Shown: piece by piece, positions 52,295-63,005 of the stretch | Layout: every line of letters begins with the position of its first letter | Numbering within the stretch: the first letter of the stretch is position 1 | Assembly: GCF_017114865.1 (NCBI RefSeq) | Contig: NZ_JADEYH010000007.1 | Location: 62,001 to 126,000 of the forward strand | Direction of reading: 5' to 3' | Source: Streptomyces verrucosisporus | GTDB lineage: Bacteria; Actinomycetota; Actinomycetes; Streptomycetales; Streptomycetaceae | DNA: 64,000 bases | Program-made: the position numbers and the translations under genes | The notes under the pieces: model-generated | The model's input: only the letters and a program-made list of their open reading frames with translations | The model's database searches: none | Told to the model about the DNA's origin: nothing

Positions 52295-52843
52295 GTGACG
52301 AGCGAGGAGACGGCGGGCAGATCCGCGGACGAGCTGCTGGACATCGTGGACGAGTACGACCGTGTGATCGGCCGGGCCCGGCGCGGCACGGCCACCGCCC
52401 GGCGGATGCGGCACCGGTGCGTGTCGGTGCGGGTGCGGGACGCCGAGGGCCGGATCTTCGTCCACCGCCGCACCCCGGAGAAGCTGGTCTTCCCCTCGAT
52501 GTACGACCTGGTGGTCGGGGGCGTGGTCGGGGCGGGCGAGAGCTACGACGAGGCGGCGCTGCGCGAGGCCGGGGAGGAGCTGGGGGTCAGCGGGCTGCCG
52601 CATCCCGAGCACCGGCTGACGTTTCTGTACGAGTCGCCGGAGCACACCTGGTTCCTGGCCGTCTACGAGGTGCGGTGCGAGCTGCCGGTGCGCCCCCAGG
52701 CCGAGGAGATCGCCTGGTGGGACTTCCTGCCGGAGGACGAGGTGGAGCGGCGGCTGGAGGGGTGGGACGTGGTGCCCGACGGGCTGGAGTGCCACCGGCG
52801 GCTGGGGGAGTGGCACCGGGAGCGTGGCGTGGGCCCGGCGTAG
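52295..52843 (+). CDS. Nudix hydrolase
   Basis: The 182-residue protein has the full Nudix box GGVVGAGESYDEAALREAGEELGV (GX5EX7REUXEEXGU) in an IPP-isomerase/dCTPase-like Nudix fold (VDEYDRVIGRARRGTATARRMRHRCVSVRVRD). Substrate unknown. GTG start, weak RBS. It is 10 nt upstream of the DUF202 pair. Confidence 0.9.
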   Translation: MTSEETAGRSADELLDIVDEYDRVIGRARRGTATARRMRHRCVSVRVRDAEGRIFVHRRTPEKLVFPSMYDLVVGGVVGAGESYDEAALREAGEELGVSGLPHPEHRLTFLYESPEHTWFLAVYEVRCELPVRPQAEEIAWWDFLPEDEVERRLEGWDVVPDGLECHRRLGEWHRERGVGPA

Positions 52844-56634: not shown

Positions 56635-57447
56635 TCACCCGGTGCGGCTCCTCAGCGCGGCGACGGTCTCCCCGACCAGCACCCGCGCCTCGGCCACCGT
56701 CGCCGCCAGCGACTCGGAGGTCTCGCCAGGTGCTCCCAGCAGGCGTCGGGCCTGCGGGCCGAAGCCGGCCGGCGCGGCCGGCAGCGTCTCGGCGACGGCC
56801 AGCGCGCCCTTCTCGTTGAGGCACCAGCGCCGGTCCTCGGCGAACACCGCCTGCACCAGCACACCGACCGCCCGGGACAGGCAGAGCGAGACGTAGAGCG
56901 TGTCCGCTCCCGCCGCGCCCTTCGCCGCGGCACCGACCAGGAACTCCGCCTCCCAGGCCGCCGCGATCAGCGCCTCCCGCAGCGGCTCGGGGTAGACCGC
57001 GGTCCTGCGCCGAAGGTCCGTCAACTCCCCGGACGGGTCGGCCAGTACCCGGCCGAGCGCCACCTCGCCCGCATAGCACGGCGACCAGAATCCGAGCGGG
57101 TGCCCGGCCTGTACGCCCACTTCGTACCGGCCCTCGCGGCAGTCCGCCCACACCCGCCCGACCCGGTCCAGGTCCCGCAGGATCCAGTCCACCGCCACGC
57201 CGTGGACGCGCAGCCACGCGCCGCCGTTCACCCAGGGCCCCCAGCCACCCGGGCCGACCACCTCCACCCCGGGACCGGCCAGCGCGCGCAGTGCGGCGAG
57301 ATCGGGATCGCCCCGGTAGTAGACGCCGAGGTCCCAGTCCGATCCGGGCCGGTGCTCCCCGCGTGCCCGGCTGCCGCCGAGCATCACCCCGACCACGCCC
57401 GGCACCTCGGCCAGGCGGCCGGCCATGTCCTCGATGATCCTCCGCAT
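56635..57447 (-). CDS. Nucleotidyltransferase-domain protein
   Basis: The 270-residue protein has an N-terminal minimal nucleotidyltransferase domain with GSRARGEHRPGSDWDLGVYY (GSx10DxD) and a second catalytic Asp in VAVDWILRDLD. The C-terminal half is helical, as in aminoglycoside or protein nucleotidyltransferases. Substrate unknown; no cyclic-nucleotide partner genes are obvious. It is 27 nt downstream of a small gene on the same strand, and its 3' end meets the 43-nt palindrome. Confidence 0.85.
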   Translation of the reverse strand: MRRIIEDMAGRLAEVPGVVGVMLGGSRARGEHRPGSDWDLGVYYRGDPDLAALRALAGPGVEVVGPGGWGPWVNGGAWLRVHGVAVDWILRDLDRVGRVWADCREGRYEVGVQAGHPLGFWSPCYAGEVALGRVLADPSGELTDLRRRTAVYPEPLREALIAAAWEAEFLVGAAAKGAAGADTLYVSLCLSRAVGVLVQAVFAEDRRWCLNEKGALAVAETLPAAPAGFGPQARRLLGAPGETSESLAATVAEARVLVGETVAALRSRTG

Positions 57448-57924: not shown

Positions 57925-58212
57925 TTACTCAGTGGTTCGGCTGGGCCGACGCCGGCGGTCGTGCTCGATGGTGTAGGCGACCGTCTCGGCGCAGTGGATG
58001 ACCGTCTGGAGGCGGTTGAGCACGTCGCGGCGGGCGGCCTCGATCAGCTCGCGGTGGCTGGGCGTCGGCTCGGTGCTGGTGCGGGGTGCCCAGAAGCCGC
58101 GGTGGCTGTGGTCGGTGACGATGTCCTGGCAGGCGCGGACCACGGCGTTCAGGGCTGCGGTGATCTCGTAGCGGTACAACTGCTCGGTCTGGACAGCACG
58201 GTCGAAGGTCAC
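57925..58212 (-). CDS. Small helical protein, fourth of a coupled string
   Basis: A 95-residue alpha-helical protein (VTFDRAVQTEQLYRYEITAALNAVVRACQDIVTDHSHRGFW...). GTG start overlaps the stop of the upstream gene by 4 nt (GTGA). No known domain. It is the last of four minus-strand genes each overlapping the next. Confidence 0.65.
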   Translation of the reverse strand: MTFDRAVQTEQLYRYEITAALNAVVRACQDIVTDHSHRGFWAPRTSTEPTPSHRELIEAARRDVLNRLQTVIHCAETVAYTIEHDRRRRPSRTTE

Positions 58213-58634
58213 GGGTAGGGCCTCGGGGTCGGTCGGGCGGCGAGCAGGTAGCGCACGGCGTCGTCGCGGATGGTGTGGGTGTAGTGCGTGCCGGAGGCGA
58301 GGACGGCCAGGGCGTGTTCGTGGGCCTGATCGTCGTGGAGCCAGCCCAGGACGGGGCGTGCGGCCGGTGGGTCGAGCTGGTCGGCGATGTGGTGGGCCCG
58401 CAGGTGGAGCCAGCGCAGGGCCAGGCGGGGTGAGCCGGCCGCGTGGGTGCCGAGGGGGAAGATGCGGCCATCGTCGGAGGTGTGGGCGACGGCCTGGCAC
58501 CGGTAGAGACGGGTTGCAGGTCCGAGGAGACGGAGTCCGGTGGTGGCCGTGGCGTCTCGCGGTGGTCGGCGTACGTCCTGGTGGCGGAACAGCCCGGATA
58601 CGTGCGTCTCGCGGAAGGACCGTGGCCGGTTCAC
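58209..58634 (-). CDS. Unrecognised protein, third of a coupled string
   Basis: A 141-residue His/Arg-rich protein (FRHQDVRRPPRDAT, LRWLHLRAHHIADQLDPP). GTG start overlaps the upstream stop by 4 nt. I do not recognise a family; the helical C-terminal half (ARPVLGWLHDDQAHEHALAVLAS) looks structured. Confidence 0.65.
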   Translation of the reverse strand: MNRPRSFRETHVSGLFRHQDVRRPPRDATATTGLRLLGPATRLYRCQAVAHTSDDGRIFPLGTHAAGSPRLALRWLHLRAHHIADQLDPPAARPVLGWLHDDQAHEHALAVLASGTHYTHTIRDDAVRYLLAARPTPRPYP

Positions 58635-59263
58635 AGGGGCCGCCCGGCGTGGAGGTCGACCAGGGTGCAGCCGGTGAGGGTGCGGGCGGCCTGGGCGGCA
58701 AGTGTCCAGCGGATCTCGGGCTGTTCGTACAGGACGACGGCCTGCAGGTCGGGAACGAGACGGCCGTTGTGGAGGCGGTGGGTCTGGCCGTGGACGCCGT
58801 CGAGTACGGAGTCGCGGACGCGGACCGCCACCGCTCCGGTGCCGCGCAAGTGGGGGCAGAGCCCGGCGGCCTTCGGTGCGCAGGGCAGGCAGACGGGCGG
58901 ATGGACGGTGACCAGGCCCTCCGGCCAGCCGGTCCAATCGGTGCGGTCGTCCTCCAGCAGCCACAGCACCCCGTGCTCGTCGCGGTCGGCCGGAGATCCG
59001 CAGATCTGGCACAGCAGCCGGGCCATCGCCCGGCGCTGCCGCTGGGGATGGACGCGGGAGTAGCGCGGCCTGCCCCGGCCCGGGTGCAGGGCGCGGCGCA
59101 CCCACAGCGCGCCGTCGGCGTCGCGGTCGTGGGGTACCTCGTCGGAGTAGGCGATGCCTCGTGCGGTGGCGATCACCGCAGGTGTGAGGCGCTGCTCGCC
59201 GCTCCAGGCGGTGATGTACGGCACCACGTCCGGCCAGTTCGGGTGTTGTGCGCTCACGGTCAC
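58631..59263 (-). CDS. Protein with zinc-ribbon-like cysteines, second of a coupled string
   Basis: A 210-residue product with LLCQICGSPADRDEHGVLW and CLPCAPKAAGLCPHLR, giving two CxxC pairs that likely bind zinc. The N-terminal part (WPDVVPYITAWSGEQRLTP) is unlike known domains. GTG start overlaps the upstream stop by 4 nt. Function unknown. Confidence 0.7.
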   Translation of the reverse strand: MTVSAQHPNWPDVVPYITAWSGEQRLTPAVIATARGIAYSDEVPHDRDADGALWVRRALHPGRGRPRYSRVHPQRQRRAMARLLCQICGSPADRDEHGVLWLLEDDRTDWTGWPEGLVTVHPPVCLPCAPKAAGLCPHLRGTGAVAVRVRDSVLDGVHGQTHRLHNGRLVPDLQAVVLYEQPEIRWTLAAQAARTLTGCTLVDLHAGRPL

Positions 59264-59772
59264 CGCGCCTCCCCTGCCTGCGCGGCGGCGATGCACGGCC
59301 GCCTGCCGTTGACCGCCACCAGGCGCACGAACCTCACCGGGTGGGCCCGCCAGGTCAGCCGGTGCCCGTCCCGGTAGACGGTCAGTGCGCAGGTGCGGCC
59401 CCGGCACAGCCGGACGTAGTCCTGGAGCGAGCCGGGCCCGTGCACCCAGTGGTCCAGCACGTACCCGGCCTGCAACGGCCCCAGCGACGGTGCCACCGCC
59501 CGCGCCCCGACCCGCAGCCACCGGATCGCCGTCTCCGGTGACGCGGCGGCGTACGCGTCGCGTCGCCCCTCCGCGCCCGGTTCGCTCTCGGCGGCGGTGA
59601 CCGCCTCGCACCACACACCCGACTCCACAAGAGCGTCGGAGAGTTGGGAGAAGCCAGTGGCTCCGGGCCTGTCCCCGAACCCGCACTGCAAAGGGGGAAG
59701 CCTGGCGGCGAGGAGTGAGGTTGAGGCCAGTGGGTCGTTGGCTGGCGATCCGGCTCGGTGCTCTTCGTTCAC
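59260..59772 (-). CDS. Unrecognised protein, first of a coupled string
   Basis: The 170-residue product starts VNEEHRAGSPANDPLASTS, with AGGAG seven nt before the GTG. The C-terminal half contains helical sequence and LCRGRTCALTVYRDGHRLTWRA. No family recognised. It diverges from the XRE regulator gene over 192 nt and leads the string of four. Confidence 0.6.
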   Translation of the reverse strand: MNEEHRAGSPANDPLASTSLLAARLPPLQCGFGDRPGATGFSQLSDALVESGVWCEAVTAAESEPGAEGRRDAYAAASPETAIRWLRVGARAVAPSLGPLQAGYVLDHWVHGPGSLQDYVRLCRGRTCALTVYRDGHRLTWRAHPVRFVRLVAVNGRRPCIAAAQAGEAR

Positions 59773-59964
59773 TTGGGCGCTCCTGACAGCACTACCGGAA
59801 ACCGCACCAGCCTCGCCGCGTATTCGAATCGTCGCTCTGAGCAACTAAGCTGACCGAAGCTTCCGGTGGAGATTTGAGTCGCGTTGAACTTACGGTGACG
59901 AAACGGGCGAAAAAACTGACGCAGAGTACGAGTAGTCCGCGAGCGAGACAGTCGGAGCGTGTTC
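59773..59964. promoter_or_regulatory. Divergent promoter region of the accessory block
   Basis: AT-rich for the window (patches near 59835-59960 such as GCGAAAAAACTGACG), between the coupled string and the XRE operon. It should carry both promoters and be controlled by the XRE protein (inference). No clear operator repeat was found. Confidence 0.5.
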
Positions 59965-61119
59965 ATGGCCACTGGCCGATCGCATGCCTTCTCAGCAAAG
60001 CTGACCGCTGGTCAGCGTTCGAAGCGGCCCACCGCCCGTGGCAACGTGGCGGGACACATGCTGAAGATCATCAGGGAGCGGATCCCCCTCACCCAACGGA
60101 CGCTGGCCGAGGAACTCGGAGCGGACCTGACCACGATCCAGGGTTGGGAATCGGGACGGCGTCCTCTCACCGCAGTGGCCTTCACACAACTGCTTGACCT
60201 ACGCCGACTCCTGCTCCGCCGAGGCGCTGACCCTGTTCTTCTGCCGTTGCTCGACCTGGCTGTCGAGGCCGACTCAGTGATCACTGCCACGCTGGCCGCC
60301 AAAGCGACCGACGACGACTGGCTTCGCCATCCGTTGTCCGGATGGGTGTTCAACAGGAACTCCACACACATGATCATCTGGGCACTCGACGGCTCCACAC
60401 CGACCGCCCTGCCGCAGCCACCGGCATCCACGCCCCGACGCAGGGGCCCCGCCCCTACGTCCCCGCTGCTCCCCGAACCGGAGCGCCGCGCTTTCTTCAC
60501 CGCTCTTCGCAGAGCGGCCGAGATCGCCGATCGAGCCGGCGATAAGGGGACACTGCTCCGCCGTCAGGCGCTCTACCTTTGCAGCTACGACACGAGCCCG
60601 GACACCCATGCGTGGCTCGCGGACATGAGAAGCCGACAACCGATGAAGGCGCACCAACTCACCTGGACACCGGCGTGGTCGGACGTGCGCTCCACCGCCA
60701 CGTCGCTGACCCGGTACGGCGATGTCGAGACTCTGCGCGCTTTCATCGCTCGTGGTATGAGCGATGACGCGGGCGAGGCGGCCAACCTCAATTACTGGGC
60801 CCACTGGCTCGGGCTGGACACGTTGCCGCGCCCCGACGACACCTTCATGACCCGGCGGTCCCCAAGTTCTTGGGATCCGGTCGCCTTGATGCGGAGCATC
60901 GCGGACCGCCTCGATCCGAAGCTCGGGGCGATCGACCTGAACGTCCACTCCGTGTGGGCGCTGGCCGGGTCGAAACCGGGTGTCCTCTCGGCCGACCGGT
61001 CCCTGCACGCGAATCTGTCCGCGCGTGTCGCCACGCTCCTGGAACGCGGCACGGTATCCCGGCAGGCCCGTCGTGAACTGGAGGCGCTGCATTACGGTCT
61101 GAGGCTGAGCAGCCAGTGA
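59965..61119 (+). CDS. XRE-family transcriptional regulator
   Basis: The 384-residue protein has a classic XRE helix-turn-helix (LTQRTLAEELGADLTTIQGWESGRRPL, about residues 46-70) and a long helical C-terminal domain that resembles the TPR-type sensor parts of Streptomyces XRE regulators. The ATG at 59965 has GGAG seven nt upstream. It is the first gene of a tight operon with the HD and SLOG genes (gaps 21 and 24 nt) and probably regulates it and the divergent string. Confidence 0.88.
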   Translation: MATGRSHAFSAKLTAGQRSKRPTARGNVAGHMLKIIRERIPLTQRTLAEELGADLTTIQGWESGRRPLTAVAFTQLLDLRRLLLRRGADPVLLPLLDLAVEADSVITATLAAKATDDDWLRHPLSGWVFNRNSTHMIIWALDGSTPTALPQPPASTPRRRGPAPTSPLLPEPERRAFFTALRRAAEIADRAGDKGTLLRRQALYLCSYDTSPDTHAWLADMRSRQPMKAHQLTWTPAWSDVRSTATSLTRYGDVETLRAFIARGMSDDAGEAANLNYWAHWLGLDTLPRPDDTFMTRRSPSSWDPVALMRSIADRLDPKLGAIDLNVHSVWALAGSKPGVLSADRSLHANLSARVATLLERGTVSRQARRELEALHYGLRLSSQ

Positions 61120-61140
61120 TCTGCCTGAGAGGAATGTCGC

Positions 61141-61716
61141 ATGACTGACGAGCAGGGCGCCAAGGGGACCGTCGGCTATCTGATGGAGATGGGCGCCCTC
61201 AAGCGCGGCAAGCGAAGCGGTTGGTGGATCGTCGGGGTCAAGGATCCCGAGACAATCGCCGAGCACTCGTTCCGTACGGCCGTCATAGGGGCTGTGCTGG
61301 CCATGATGGAGGGCGCCGACCCTGCCAAGGTCGCCCTGTTGTGCACTTTCCACGACACTCAGGAAACCCGGGTGGGTGACATTCCGTGGATCGGTCGGCG
61401 CTACCTCCGGGCGGCCTCGAACGAGGAGGTCACCGCCGACCAGGTCGCGGACGCGCACCCCGCCGTGGCAGAGGGCATCAGGGCCGTGGTCCACGAGTAC
61501 GAGAACGGTGAATCGCTGGAGGTGCTCGTCGCGCGTGACGCCGACAAACTGGAATGCGTGATTCAGGGGCTGGAGTACCTGGAACAGGGCTATTCCAACG
61601 CCCGGGAGTGGGTGGACACCACCCGGGCGAAGCTGAAGACGCCCTCCGCGCAGGCACTCGCCGAGGCTGCGGAAGGAATGTCCATCACCGAGTGGCAGCG
61701 CACCTACCTGCGTTGA
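61141..61716 (+). CDS. HD-domain phosphohydrolase (YfbR/HDDC2-like)
   Basis: A 191-residue HD-superfamily enzyme of the deoxynucleoside 5'-monophosphatase type: metal ligands His42 (IAEHSFR), His71-Asp72 (TFHDTQE) and Asp133/Asp135 (ARDADKLE). It could remove phosphate from (d)NMPs. It is 21 nt after the XRE gene, with AGAGG upstream. Its context suggests nucleotide metabolism or defence rather than housekeeping. Confidence 0.88.
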   Translation: MTDEQGAKGTVGYLMEMGALKRGKRSGWWIVGVKDPETIAEHSFRTAVIGAVLAMMEGADPAKVALLCTFHDTQETRVGDIPWIGRRYLRAASNEEVTADQVADAHPAVAEGIRAVVHEYENGESLEVLVARDADKLECVIQGLEYLEQGYSNAREWVDTTRAKLKTPSAQALAEAAEGMSITEWQRTYLR

Positions 61717-61740
61717 AGCCGCACCCTGCGGAGGAGACCC

Positions 61741-62217
61741 ATGCGCGTGGGAATCACCGGGCACCGCGGACTGCCCGAGCCTGTCGCCGAGCGGGTACGG
61801 ACCATGCTGGAGGCGGAGGTGCGGCAGTACCCGCCAGGTGAGCTGGTGGGGGTGTCGTGCCTGGCGGACGGGCCGGACGTATGGTTCGCCGAGTACGTGC
61901 TCGACCACGGCGGGCGCGTCGAGGCCGTCCTGCCCGCCGAGCGGTACCGCGACGATCTGCCCGAGTGGCACCACCCGGCGTACGACGGCCTGCTGGGGAG
62001 CGCGGCCGAGGTGCACCGCACCGGGCTGGTCGAGTCCGACTCCCACGCCCACCAGGCGGGCAGCGAGATCCTCGTCGGCCTGGTCGACCGGCTGCTCGCC
62101 GTCTGGGACGGGAAACCGGCGCGCGGCTACGGAGGCACGGCGGACGTGGTGGCCTACGCCCGCCGCACCGGCGTCCCCGTCCGGGTGCTGTGGCCCGAGG
62201 GCGCCTCCCGGGACTGA
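61741..62217 (+). CDS. SLOG-type Rossmann protein
   Basis: A 158-residue protein starting MRVGITGHRGLPEPVAERV and containing the glycine-rich phosphate-binding GYGGTADVVAYARRTG of the SLOG (SMF/DprA-LOG) superfamily, whose members bind or cleave nucleotide ligands. RBS GGAGGAG precedes the ATG. Function could be sensing or hydrolysing a nucleotide derivative (inference). Confidence 0.75.
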   Translation: MRVGITGHRGLPEPVAERVRTMLEAEVRQYPPGELVGVSCLADGPDVWFAEYVLDHGGRVEAVLPAERYRDDLPEWHHPAYDGLLGSAAEVHRTGLVESDSHAHQAGSEILVGLVDRLLAVWDGKPARGYGGTADVVAYARRTGVPVRVLWPEGASRD

Positions 62218-62259
62218 CGGCGTTGCCGCGTCGCCCGGTTCGGCGGAAGAATCCGTGGA

Positions 62260-62904
62260 ATGCGTGATCGACTGTGGTTACCGGCCGGGCTGTGCCTGCG
62301 TCCGTGGGCGCTGTCCGATGCCCCCGCCGTACTGGAGGCGTTCGCGGAACCGGTGATGAGGCGGCAGGCCGACGCGCCCGTCGCCACGGCGGCGGAGACC
62401 GAGCAGTGGATCCGGCGGCGACGGGACCAGTGGCAGCATGGAGTGGCCTACGGCTTCGCCGTCGCCGACGGCGGCGACACGGCTCTGGGCTGTGTCGCGG
62501 TGGGCGGCGTCAACGCGCAGCACAGTACCGGTTGGGTCTCCTACTGGACCACCGCCGCCGCCCGTGGCAGGGGCGTGGCGGCCCACGGCTGCCGGGCGCT
62601 GGCCGACTGGTGCTTCACCGACCTTGGCCTGTTCCGCCTGGAGTTGGGGCACCGCACCGACAACCCGGCCTCCTGTCGCGTGGCCCGCGCGGCGGGGTTC
62701 GCACCCGAGGGTCTGCAACGGCGAAAGCTCGCCTACGACGGCGTCCGCTACGACGTCGAGCTGCACGCACGGCTGGCGACGGACCCGCACCCGGAGCAGC
62801 AGGAGCACGAGGTGCGCATCAGCCGCCATTTCGAGCGTGCGCGCAAGTGGGGTGCTGTCGAGGATGCCGAGCGTCTGCATGACGCGGAGAAGCGCGACCG
62901 GTGA
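62260..62904 (+). CDS. GNAT N-acetyltransferase
   Basis: A 214-residue RimJ/RimL-type acetyltransferase: LRPWALSDAPAVLEAFAEPV, acetyl-CoA motif AARGRGVAAHGCRALADWCF and LELGHRTDNPASCRVARAAGF. 42 nt downstream of the SLOG gene, possibly the last gene of the XRE operon. Substrate unknown. A 35-residue C-terminal extension after the fold is unusual. Confidence 0.85.
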   Translation: MRDRLWLPAGLCLRPWALSDAPAVLEAFAEPVMRRQADAPVATAAETEQWIRRRRDQWQHGVAYGFAVADGGDTALGCVAVGGVNAQHSTGWVSYWTTAAARGRGVAAHGCRALADWCFTDLGLFRLELGHRTDNPASCRVARAAGFAPEGLQRRKLAYDGVRYDVELHARLATDPHPEQQEHEVRISRHFERARKWGAVEDAERLHDAEKRDR

Positions 62905-62939
62905 ACTTCCCCTGACCTGTCCGGCCGCGCACAAGAAGG

Positions 62940-62980
62940 CCGTGTGTCCCCGGACCGCCCAGCGGTCCGGGGACACACGG
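62940..62980. terminator. Bidirectional terminator
   Basis: A perfect 19-bp stem (62940-62958 with 62962-62980) with a 3-nt CCA loop between convergent GNAT and oxidoreductase genes. Confidence 0.8.
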
Positions 62981-63005
62981 CGCCGGCGGGTGGGCCGGCA
63001 ACGGC

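Follow-up and report, generated by a model that had tools for sequence, protein, structure and literature searches.

Results

Gene content of the block

We analysed a stretch of 64,000 nucleotides from Streptomyces verrucosisporus (contig NZ_JADEYH010000007.1, positions 62,001 to 126,000; hereafter the window), which is part of a 6.06-Mb genome, and concentrated on a block of four genes that encode an XRE regulator, an HD enzyme, a SLOG-fold protein and a GNAT acetyltransferase. A preliminary description of this DNA had presented the block, together with four divergent genes and a nearby nucleotidyltransferase gene, as a candidate for an undescribed signalling or phage-defence system. We found that XRE and HD are probably a widespread mobile two-gene pair and not part of a four-gene defence system. 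The block contains the following features:

59965..61119 (longest start 59959), + strand: XRE regulator, helix-turn-helix (HTH) plus helical solenoid; 384 amino acids, or 386 from 59959
61141..61716, + strand: HD enzyme, predicted HDDC2/YfbR-type 5'-nucleotidase (HD_3), 191 amino acids
61741..62217, + strand: SLOG-fold protein (predicted), 158 amino acids; by descent probably from an NsdA-like regulator/SLOG module
62260..62904, + strand: GNAT acetyltransferase, 214 amino acids; PF13302, 1.7e-22
62939..62982, + strand: terminator-like hairpin 3' of GNAT, perfect, 20 bp; –48.1 kcal/mol, z –7.07

All four genes lie on the + strand with intergenic gaps of 21, 24 and 42 nt in the list of open reading frames (ORFs), which confirms the gene number, order and 21–42 nt spacing reported before. 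The gene identities were upheld as well, by Pfam for XRE, HD and GNAT and by predicted fold for SLOG.

The XRE and HD proteins

XRE matched the Pfam families HTH_31 (8.4e-5) and HTH_3 (6.6e-4), each under the curated cut-off, and HTH_3 was matched by 25 of 26 aligned XRE-family proteins, the window protein among them. In the AlphaFold2 model (predicted local distance difference test, pLDDT, 82.4), the HTH is followed by a helical solenoid, and a fold search with this solenoid returned no specific relative (ZYG11B, Z 10.2; PlcR, Z 8.1; none at E <0.001 in Foldseek). HD matched PF13023 (3.2e-26, residues 18–167) and the YfbR-like family PF12917 (2.4e-9), with the HD_3/YfbR-like domain covering most of the protein. 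When its profile was compared with PDB, we found AF1432 (1.8e-28), HDDC2 (3.2e-21) and YfbR (9.4e-10), and YGL101W was also matched. Residues R25, W28, H42, H71, D72, E75, D80 and D133 are invariant in all 31 aligned rows, including the window; by comparison with YfbR, we take H42, H71, D72, E75 and D133 to be the metal-binding H..HD..D and E residues. The PDB profile matches and these invariant motif residues make it very likely, at the level of sequence, that HD works as a 5'-(deoxy)nucleotidase. It is not YfbR itself, since it scores 27 bits against the NCBIfam 5'-deoxynucleotidase equivalog model, whose cut-off is 122. No dNTPase model in Pfam, NCBIfam or PADLOC matched HD.

XRE and HD are linked across genomes and mobile elements

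To measure how constantly the two genes occur together, we searched 121 congeneric genomes and called an XRE match near full length when at least 215 of 359 residues aligned. XRE matches were present in 39 of the 121 genomes and near full length in 31, so that the locus is variable and no invariant housekeeping core. In all 31 genomes with a near-full XRE, HD lies downstream on the same contig and strand, and the aligned ends are 17–50 nt apart in 30 of them (408 nt in the remaining genome, G306). HD also sits beside XRE in 28 of 28 plasmid records, several of them near-identical (assessed by eye; MZ502219 by annotation), and XRE is followed by HD at 9 of 9 IMG/VR loci. Among 39 fetched HD loci, which were chosen by hand, mostly as best matches, and are not a random sample, XRE is near full at 27, partial at 5 and absent at 7. 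The XRE and HD distances are correlated (r 0.68 over 25 pairs; best of 2000 permutations, 0.31), with shared strain history not removed from this value. Beyond the genus, HD relatives were found in 104 of 297 family genomes (E 0.001) and 7 of 296 phylum genomes (E 1e-20).

The neighbours of HD vary. By motif, NUDIX lies beside HD at 4 of the 39 fetched HD loci (L158, L159, L160 and L169), and HD follows NUDIX in L160 and L159 and CYTH in L174. CYTH-domain (CyaB-like) genes adjoin HD at L173 (5443–6009) and L174 (5275–5841), where an NsdA-like/SLOG cassette faces the genes tail to tail. On pPZG101 (L239, 6742–8166), a MobF relaxase gene directly adjoins the XRE–HD pair.

These arrangements bear on two explanations of the pair in terms of mobile elements. 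A toxin–antitoxin system for plasmid or element maintenance, with HD as toxin and XRE as antitoxin, would agree with a fixed-order two-gene operon that is plasmid-borne (28 records) and with the S. pini group, which lacks XRE and in which HD is broken in three different ways. However, stop-free HD genes occur without a near-full XRE in G334, G335, G346, G366, G348 and G385, the regulator is large and lies ahead of the enzyme, and HD can stand behind NUDIX (L160, L159) or CYTH (L174), and we regard this explanation as highly improbable. The pair could instead serve element immunity or the control of transfer, as does the Nudix protein Pif of pSAM2. The xre-mdp-nud cluster of integrative elements and the role of Pif, as described in the accessible part of PMC3218068, speak for such a function, as do the four loci with NUDIX beside HD and the relaxase gene on pPZG101. 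Nevertheless, we recognised neither a gene for transfer nor an integrase among the window genes examined (52–64 kb, where not every ORF was scanned), and a NUDIX box adjoins HD, by motif, in just 4 of the 39 fetched HD loci; we find this function very doubtful for the pair.

Candidate operators upstream of and inside the XRE gene

We found two operator-like sites close to the XRE start:

59913..59938, + strand: O1, candidate operator upstream of XRE; AAACTGACGCAGAGTACGAGTAGTCC
60001..60015, no strand assigned: O2, perfect palindrome CTGAC-N5-GTCAG inside the XRE frame, encoding LTAGQ

O1 has the consensus GGACTGACYGCGRGTACGNGT and a median position of –53 from the XRE start. In the window it scores 24.9, as compared to 5.5 for the runner-up in the 64 kb, and scores of at least 20 occur at 36 of 40 XRE–HD loci, as compared to a 99% quantile of 5.1 and a maximum of 13.0 in shuffled sequence. 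Exact O1 9-mers were found at 9 of the 40 loci, as compared to at most 5 in ten shuffles. In the entire 6.06-Mb genome, the O1 core pattern has one exact copy and 4 places with one mismatch.

For O2, 19 of the 40 XRE genes have a copy with at most one mismatch (13 exact) within their first 75 coding nt, as compared to none in 400 control bins taken from these genes; the other 21 XRE genes lack a close copy. The window holds one exact copy only. In L220 both arms have changed together, to CTCAC-N5-GTGAG. Conservation of the palindrome would explain the recurrent LTxxQ peptide. Across the genome we counted 10 exact O2 sites, as compared to 2 for the reversed control, and since 8 of the 9 others fall within predicted genes (by a crude gene caller that misses XRE's own start), we claim no wider O2 regulon. 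The arrangement of these candidate sites would look like that of an autoregulated repressor.

The SLOG-fold protein has a different usual partner

No Pfam family matched the SLOG-fold protein at E ≤1, and NCBIfam gave only two weak matches to DNA polymerase III models. Its AlphaFold2 model (pLDDT 94.6) aligned best with YpsA (2nx2; Z 18.2, 153 aligned residues, 2.7 Å by VIA-align), followed by DprA (3uqz; Z 16.2), ShosA (Z 15.1) and LOG proteins (Z about 12), and it is by this predicted fold that we place the protein in the SLOG superfamily. GITGHR and GGT stretches are conserved in an alignment of the window protein with relatives from 26 of the 80 loci described below (L045 was excluded from it for a stop inside the given range).

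We then examined 80 SLOG loci, the closest relatives of the window SLOG in the genome collection, where its closest kin are from Streptomyces. An NsdA-like family (median 418 amino acids) lies upstream of SLOG at no fewer than 53 of the 80 loci and ends within 60 nt of it at no fewer than 50, both counts being lower bounds owing to ORF selection. The one representative scored (L034) matched the HTH/TPR regulator model NF053720 at 2.7e-60. In contrast, HD, whole or as a remnant, is present at 3 of the 80 loci (L031 from S. pini, L032 from S. megasporus and L033 from S. radiopugnans), and an XRE fragment at 1. The proposal that the four genes form one system was rejected on these counts: the partner of HD is XRE.

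The SLOG searches also turned up other arrangements. Two congeneric genomes (G323:C1:5120633-5122001 and G348:C1:5163969-5165617) carry tandem SLOG genes of two subfamilies (41–43% and 67–72% identical to the query), separated by about 430 and 700 bp. On Rhizobium binae plasmid p4 (L237, 2617–4986), a distant SLOG (DUF1273) is part of a tight TIR - caspase - SLOG - TIR string that has the look of a system for defence or cell death. On another Rhizobium plasmid and on a Bacillus plasmid, SLOG relatives also overlap with annotations of the caspase family.

The nucleotidyltransferase gene (56635-57447) is a real gene (NTP_transf_2, 8e-7; DUF4037, 8.7e-7) with a weak match to the PADLOC model PDC-S09 (3.9e-7) and one below cut-off to an MntA antitoxin model. 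The partner role proposed for it did not hold. A tblastn search of 110 SLOG loci, 30 of them short stretches of about 3.4 kb, found no kin, nor did a search of another 40 loci that included 39 HD loci, and we rejected it as a partner of the block.

The block is a lineage-specific composite

In S. megasporus (L032) both modules stand side by side: an XRE remnant and a full HD lie at 1.4–2.2 kb of the locus, and an NsdA-family regulator (8.6e-27), an APH-like gene and SLOG at 3.6–6.5 kb, 1.4 kb past HD. In S. pini (L031), the order is a TPR gene with an apparently disrupted frame, an APH-like gene, HD and SLOG, and HD is short of about its last 20 residues. In S. radiopugnans (L033, 5818–6471), the start of HD and a shortened SLOG share one open frame of 217 amino acids, and in G113 only the last part of HD remains. 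An APH-like gene precedes the HD pieces and SLOG in L031, L033 and L178, as does a TPR gene in L031. The HD DNA of the window is 99.2% identical to that of S. pini, as compared to 92–96% in the flanks, and this difference suggests a recent exchange of the HD piece.

Kin of GNAT at 79–90% were found in L031/L141 (same contig) and L178/L003 (same genome), with distant matches of 29–32% in L144 and L165, and close kin at the equivalent place occur in the S. pini group only. An inverted repeat matching the hairpin 3' of GNAT is present in L033 and L178.

We conclude that the block is a lineage-specific composite and not a conserved system. On the simplest reading, two neighbouring cassettes would have been fused by deletions, with the window retaining XRE–HD and SLOG. 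Among the matches listed for the 121 congeneric genomes and judged by eye, HD lies within 10 kb of SLOG only in G000 and G334. Neighbourhoods of HD and SLOG were also seen in G205, in G187 and G137 (tail to tail) and in G010, which counts against rejecting a four-gene system; as these exceed a rough chance estimate, a functional link between the two enzymes may exist.

Divergent genes are shared between the two modules

The divergent string described earlier is real. It consists of four minus-strand ORFs joined by 4-nt overlaps, none of which scored above a Pfam cut-off:

59260..59844, – strand: divergent gene 1, unknown
58631..59263, – strand: divergent gene 2, u210 family, Cys-rich, unknown
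58209..58634, – strand: divergent gene 3, unknown; 4-nt overlaps with its neighbours
57925..58212, – strand: divergent gene 4, unknown

Gene 1 probably starts near 59616, because similarity to its relatives begins near 59635. Relatives of u210 are divergent at both modules (3 of 39 HD loci and 4 of 53 NsdA/SLOG loci). When we compared all upstream minus-strand families, 184 pairs of an HD locus and a SLOG locus shared a family (18 of 39 HD loci and 26 of 53 SLOG loci), as compared to 17 pairs in the downstream control, 8 of which are SLOG itself. The largest shared families are PCMT-type methyltransferases (11 of 39 HD loci and 15 of 53 SLOG loci) and graspetide ATP-grasp ligases (4 of 39 and 12 of 53, respectively). 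We scanned 75 HD-side divergent genes from 33 loci, selected manually among 266 predicted neighbours; 15 match TIGR04188 (graspetide methyltransferase), 4 match TIGR04187 (graspetide ligase) and 9 carry a HATPase domain. Among the matches listed, an ATP-grasp gene lies 2.5 kb (G323) and 1 kb (G376) from XRE–HD. A P450/ferredoxin operon takes the divergent position on two Nocardia plasmids.

These neighbours help to judge two further explanations. The pair could simply sanitise the nucleotide pool, with XRE as the local repressor of the enzyme and the divergent genes as chance neighbours. The kinship of HD to the HDDC2/YfbR family, the NUDIX and CYTH enzymes that adjoin HD at some loci and the 21 of 39 HD loci without a divergent family common to SLOG loci all point that way; however, the divergent families shared with SLOG modules far exceed the downstream control, and the pair is patchy and mobile, not core. 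We consider this explanation unlikely.

Phage defence by nucleotide depletion would have XRE hold HD off until infection frees it to destroy deoxynucleoside monophosphates (dNMPs). In Clover, according to the accessible text of PMC12265719, an HD enzyme does act under the control of a partner, and the patchy spread (39 of 121 genomes), the plasmid carriage, an HD relative on 32 IMG/VR contigs (phage and plasmid not told apart; 9 at 39–51% identity) and the match of 2 of the 75 divergent genes to the MADS6 defence-kinase model are consistent with such a role. In contrast, PADLOC matched none of 31 HD relatives, in a survey that included no systematic defence-island test, 50,697 phage records gave one weak HD match, HD appears from its sequence to be of the dNMP type and no dNTPase, and the commonest divergent neighbours are modification enzymes. 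Phage defence is thus very unlikely in our judgement. What stands of the signalling or defence proposal is a regulator with nucleotide-handling enzymes, undescribed in function, patchy in spread and divergent from unknown genes, with a probable role in nucleotide-linked signalling; the defence part is without support.

Discussion

A model for the block

The explanation that we favour, with middling confidence, sees the block as two fused cassettes in which an autoregulated XRE and a nucleotide enzyme control a local accessory operon. Its directly supported elements are the linkage, the active-site conservation, the operator-like elements, the predicted fold of SLOG and a relative that has the two modules next to each other. 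XRE would act as a repressor, with a helical domain as its sensor, and would bind to O1 between the two divergent promoters and to O2 in its own frame; it would control itself, HD and probably the divergent four-gene operon. The substrate or product of HD may be, or compete with, a small nucleotide-type ligand sensed by XRE, which would create a feedback loop. SLOG would be the enzyme left over from a second cassette, built in the same way (NsdA-like TPR regulator plus SLOG), whose regulator was lost here, and SLOG and GNAT could be read through from the XRE–HD promoter up to the hairpin at 62939.

A broader idea, conceivable and offered tentatively, is that streptomycetes carry plug-in cassettes in which a helical-sensor HTH regulator (XRE386 or NsdA-like) is combined with an exchangeable HD, SLOG, NUDIX or CYTH enzyme that makes or destroys a diffusible nucleotide-type signal, and which switch peptide-modification or accessory operons from the same divergent slot. 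The window would then be a natural hybrid of two such cassettes.

Several observations weigh against these proposals. The O1 matrix scores the 40 XRE–HD loci on which it was itself trained, and O1 and O2 were both found on related loci. O1 reaches a score of at least 18 at 1 of the 80 SLOG loci (L077), so the two modules do not share it, and because the HTH alone aligned in a profile comparison of XRE386 with NsdA-like regulators, the two solenoids may be unrelated. The linkage is looser from the HD side: near-full HD is present in 38 congeneric genomes, 7 of which have no near-full XRE, so that HD can exist without it. In the divergent slot, 21 of the 39 HD loci have no family in common with SLOG loci; of the seven HD-locus methyltransferases whose scores were seen, six fall below the NCBI graspetide cut-off of 380 bits and L225 alone is above it; and the best of the two MADS6 matches reaches 4.9e-12. 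Individual plasmids add to this list. On an S. coelicoflavus plasmid (L238, 5065–6474), SLOG occurs without an NsdA-like gene and is adjoined by an HTH regulator and an opposite-strand RelE/ParE-type toxin gene; an S. virginiae plasmid has a zeta-toxin family gene and an integrase near the XRE–HD pair; and Nocardia plasmids have a Scr1-type antitoxin-like regulator and a PIN-domain gene about 4 kb from the pair.

For work on this locus, the tempting four-gene 'defence operon' is replaced by an XRE–HD unit that can be tested. The pair offers a handle on a nucleotide-type ligand to which accessory operons, graspetide-type clusters included, may respond, and if the enzyme does set the level of the ligand, it would add a new layer of small-molecule control to accessory metabolism and mobile elements.

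Comparison with known systems

HD resembles the 5'-deoxynucleotidases HDDC2, YfbR and AF1432 in profile matches over most of its length and in the motif residues kept, with a weaker match to YfbR (9.4e-10) than to HDDC2 and AF1432; it differs from them in that it sits behind a dedicated regulator and is mobile. Clover, which pairs the dGTPase CloA with the nucleotidyltransferase CloB according to the accessible text of PMC12265719, likewise combines an HD enzyme with a nucleotidyltransferase gene, and in the window the two lie 3.7 kb apart. However, the window HD is of the small 5'-nucleotidase kind (191 amino acids, HD_3) and not of the dGTPase type, and the window gene at 56635-57447, the candidate for a linked Pol-beta-type nucleotidyltransferase, is without kin at the other HD and SLOG loci examined.

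The SLOG protein is like YpsA, DprA, LOG proteins and the SLOG domain of ThsA in predicted fold, with Z scores of only 8.3–9.3 to ThsA structures, and it stands alone beside a regulator. NsdA-family TPR regulators (NF053720), the usual partner of this SLOG elsewhere, are missing at the window locus.

With respect to the literature, the regulators near graspetide loci include HATPase and HTH-DUF5753 proteins in the accessible part of PMC8939145, in whose main text, as available, the term 'HD domain' is absent; 'HD domain', 'Streptomyces', 'SLOG' and 'Xre' are likewise absent from the available main text of DefensePredictor (PMC13092281). No characterised XRE–HD pair was found in the open-access literature under the terms searched, at the level of titles and abstract openings. 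The closest precedent is in PMC3218068, whose accessible part describes a cluster of mdp (HD), nud (Nudix) and xre genes common to pMEA100, pSE211, Sco5349 and four Frankia elements, with the larger XRE proteins 27–36% identical to NsdA, and the XRE–HD gene pair has therefore been noted before. By gene content, the window resembles this cluster of actinomycete integrative and conjugative elements in the adjacency of XRE and HD on actinobacterial mobile elements; it differs in that no NUDIX lies beside the window HD, the sole NUDIX box (by motif) being at 52520, 8.6 kb away. The constant linkage, the operator-like sites, the slot shared with NsdA/SLOG and the peptide-modification neighbours go beyond the account given in the accessible part of that paper.

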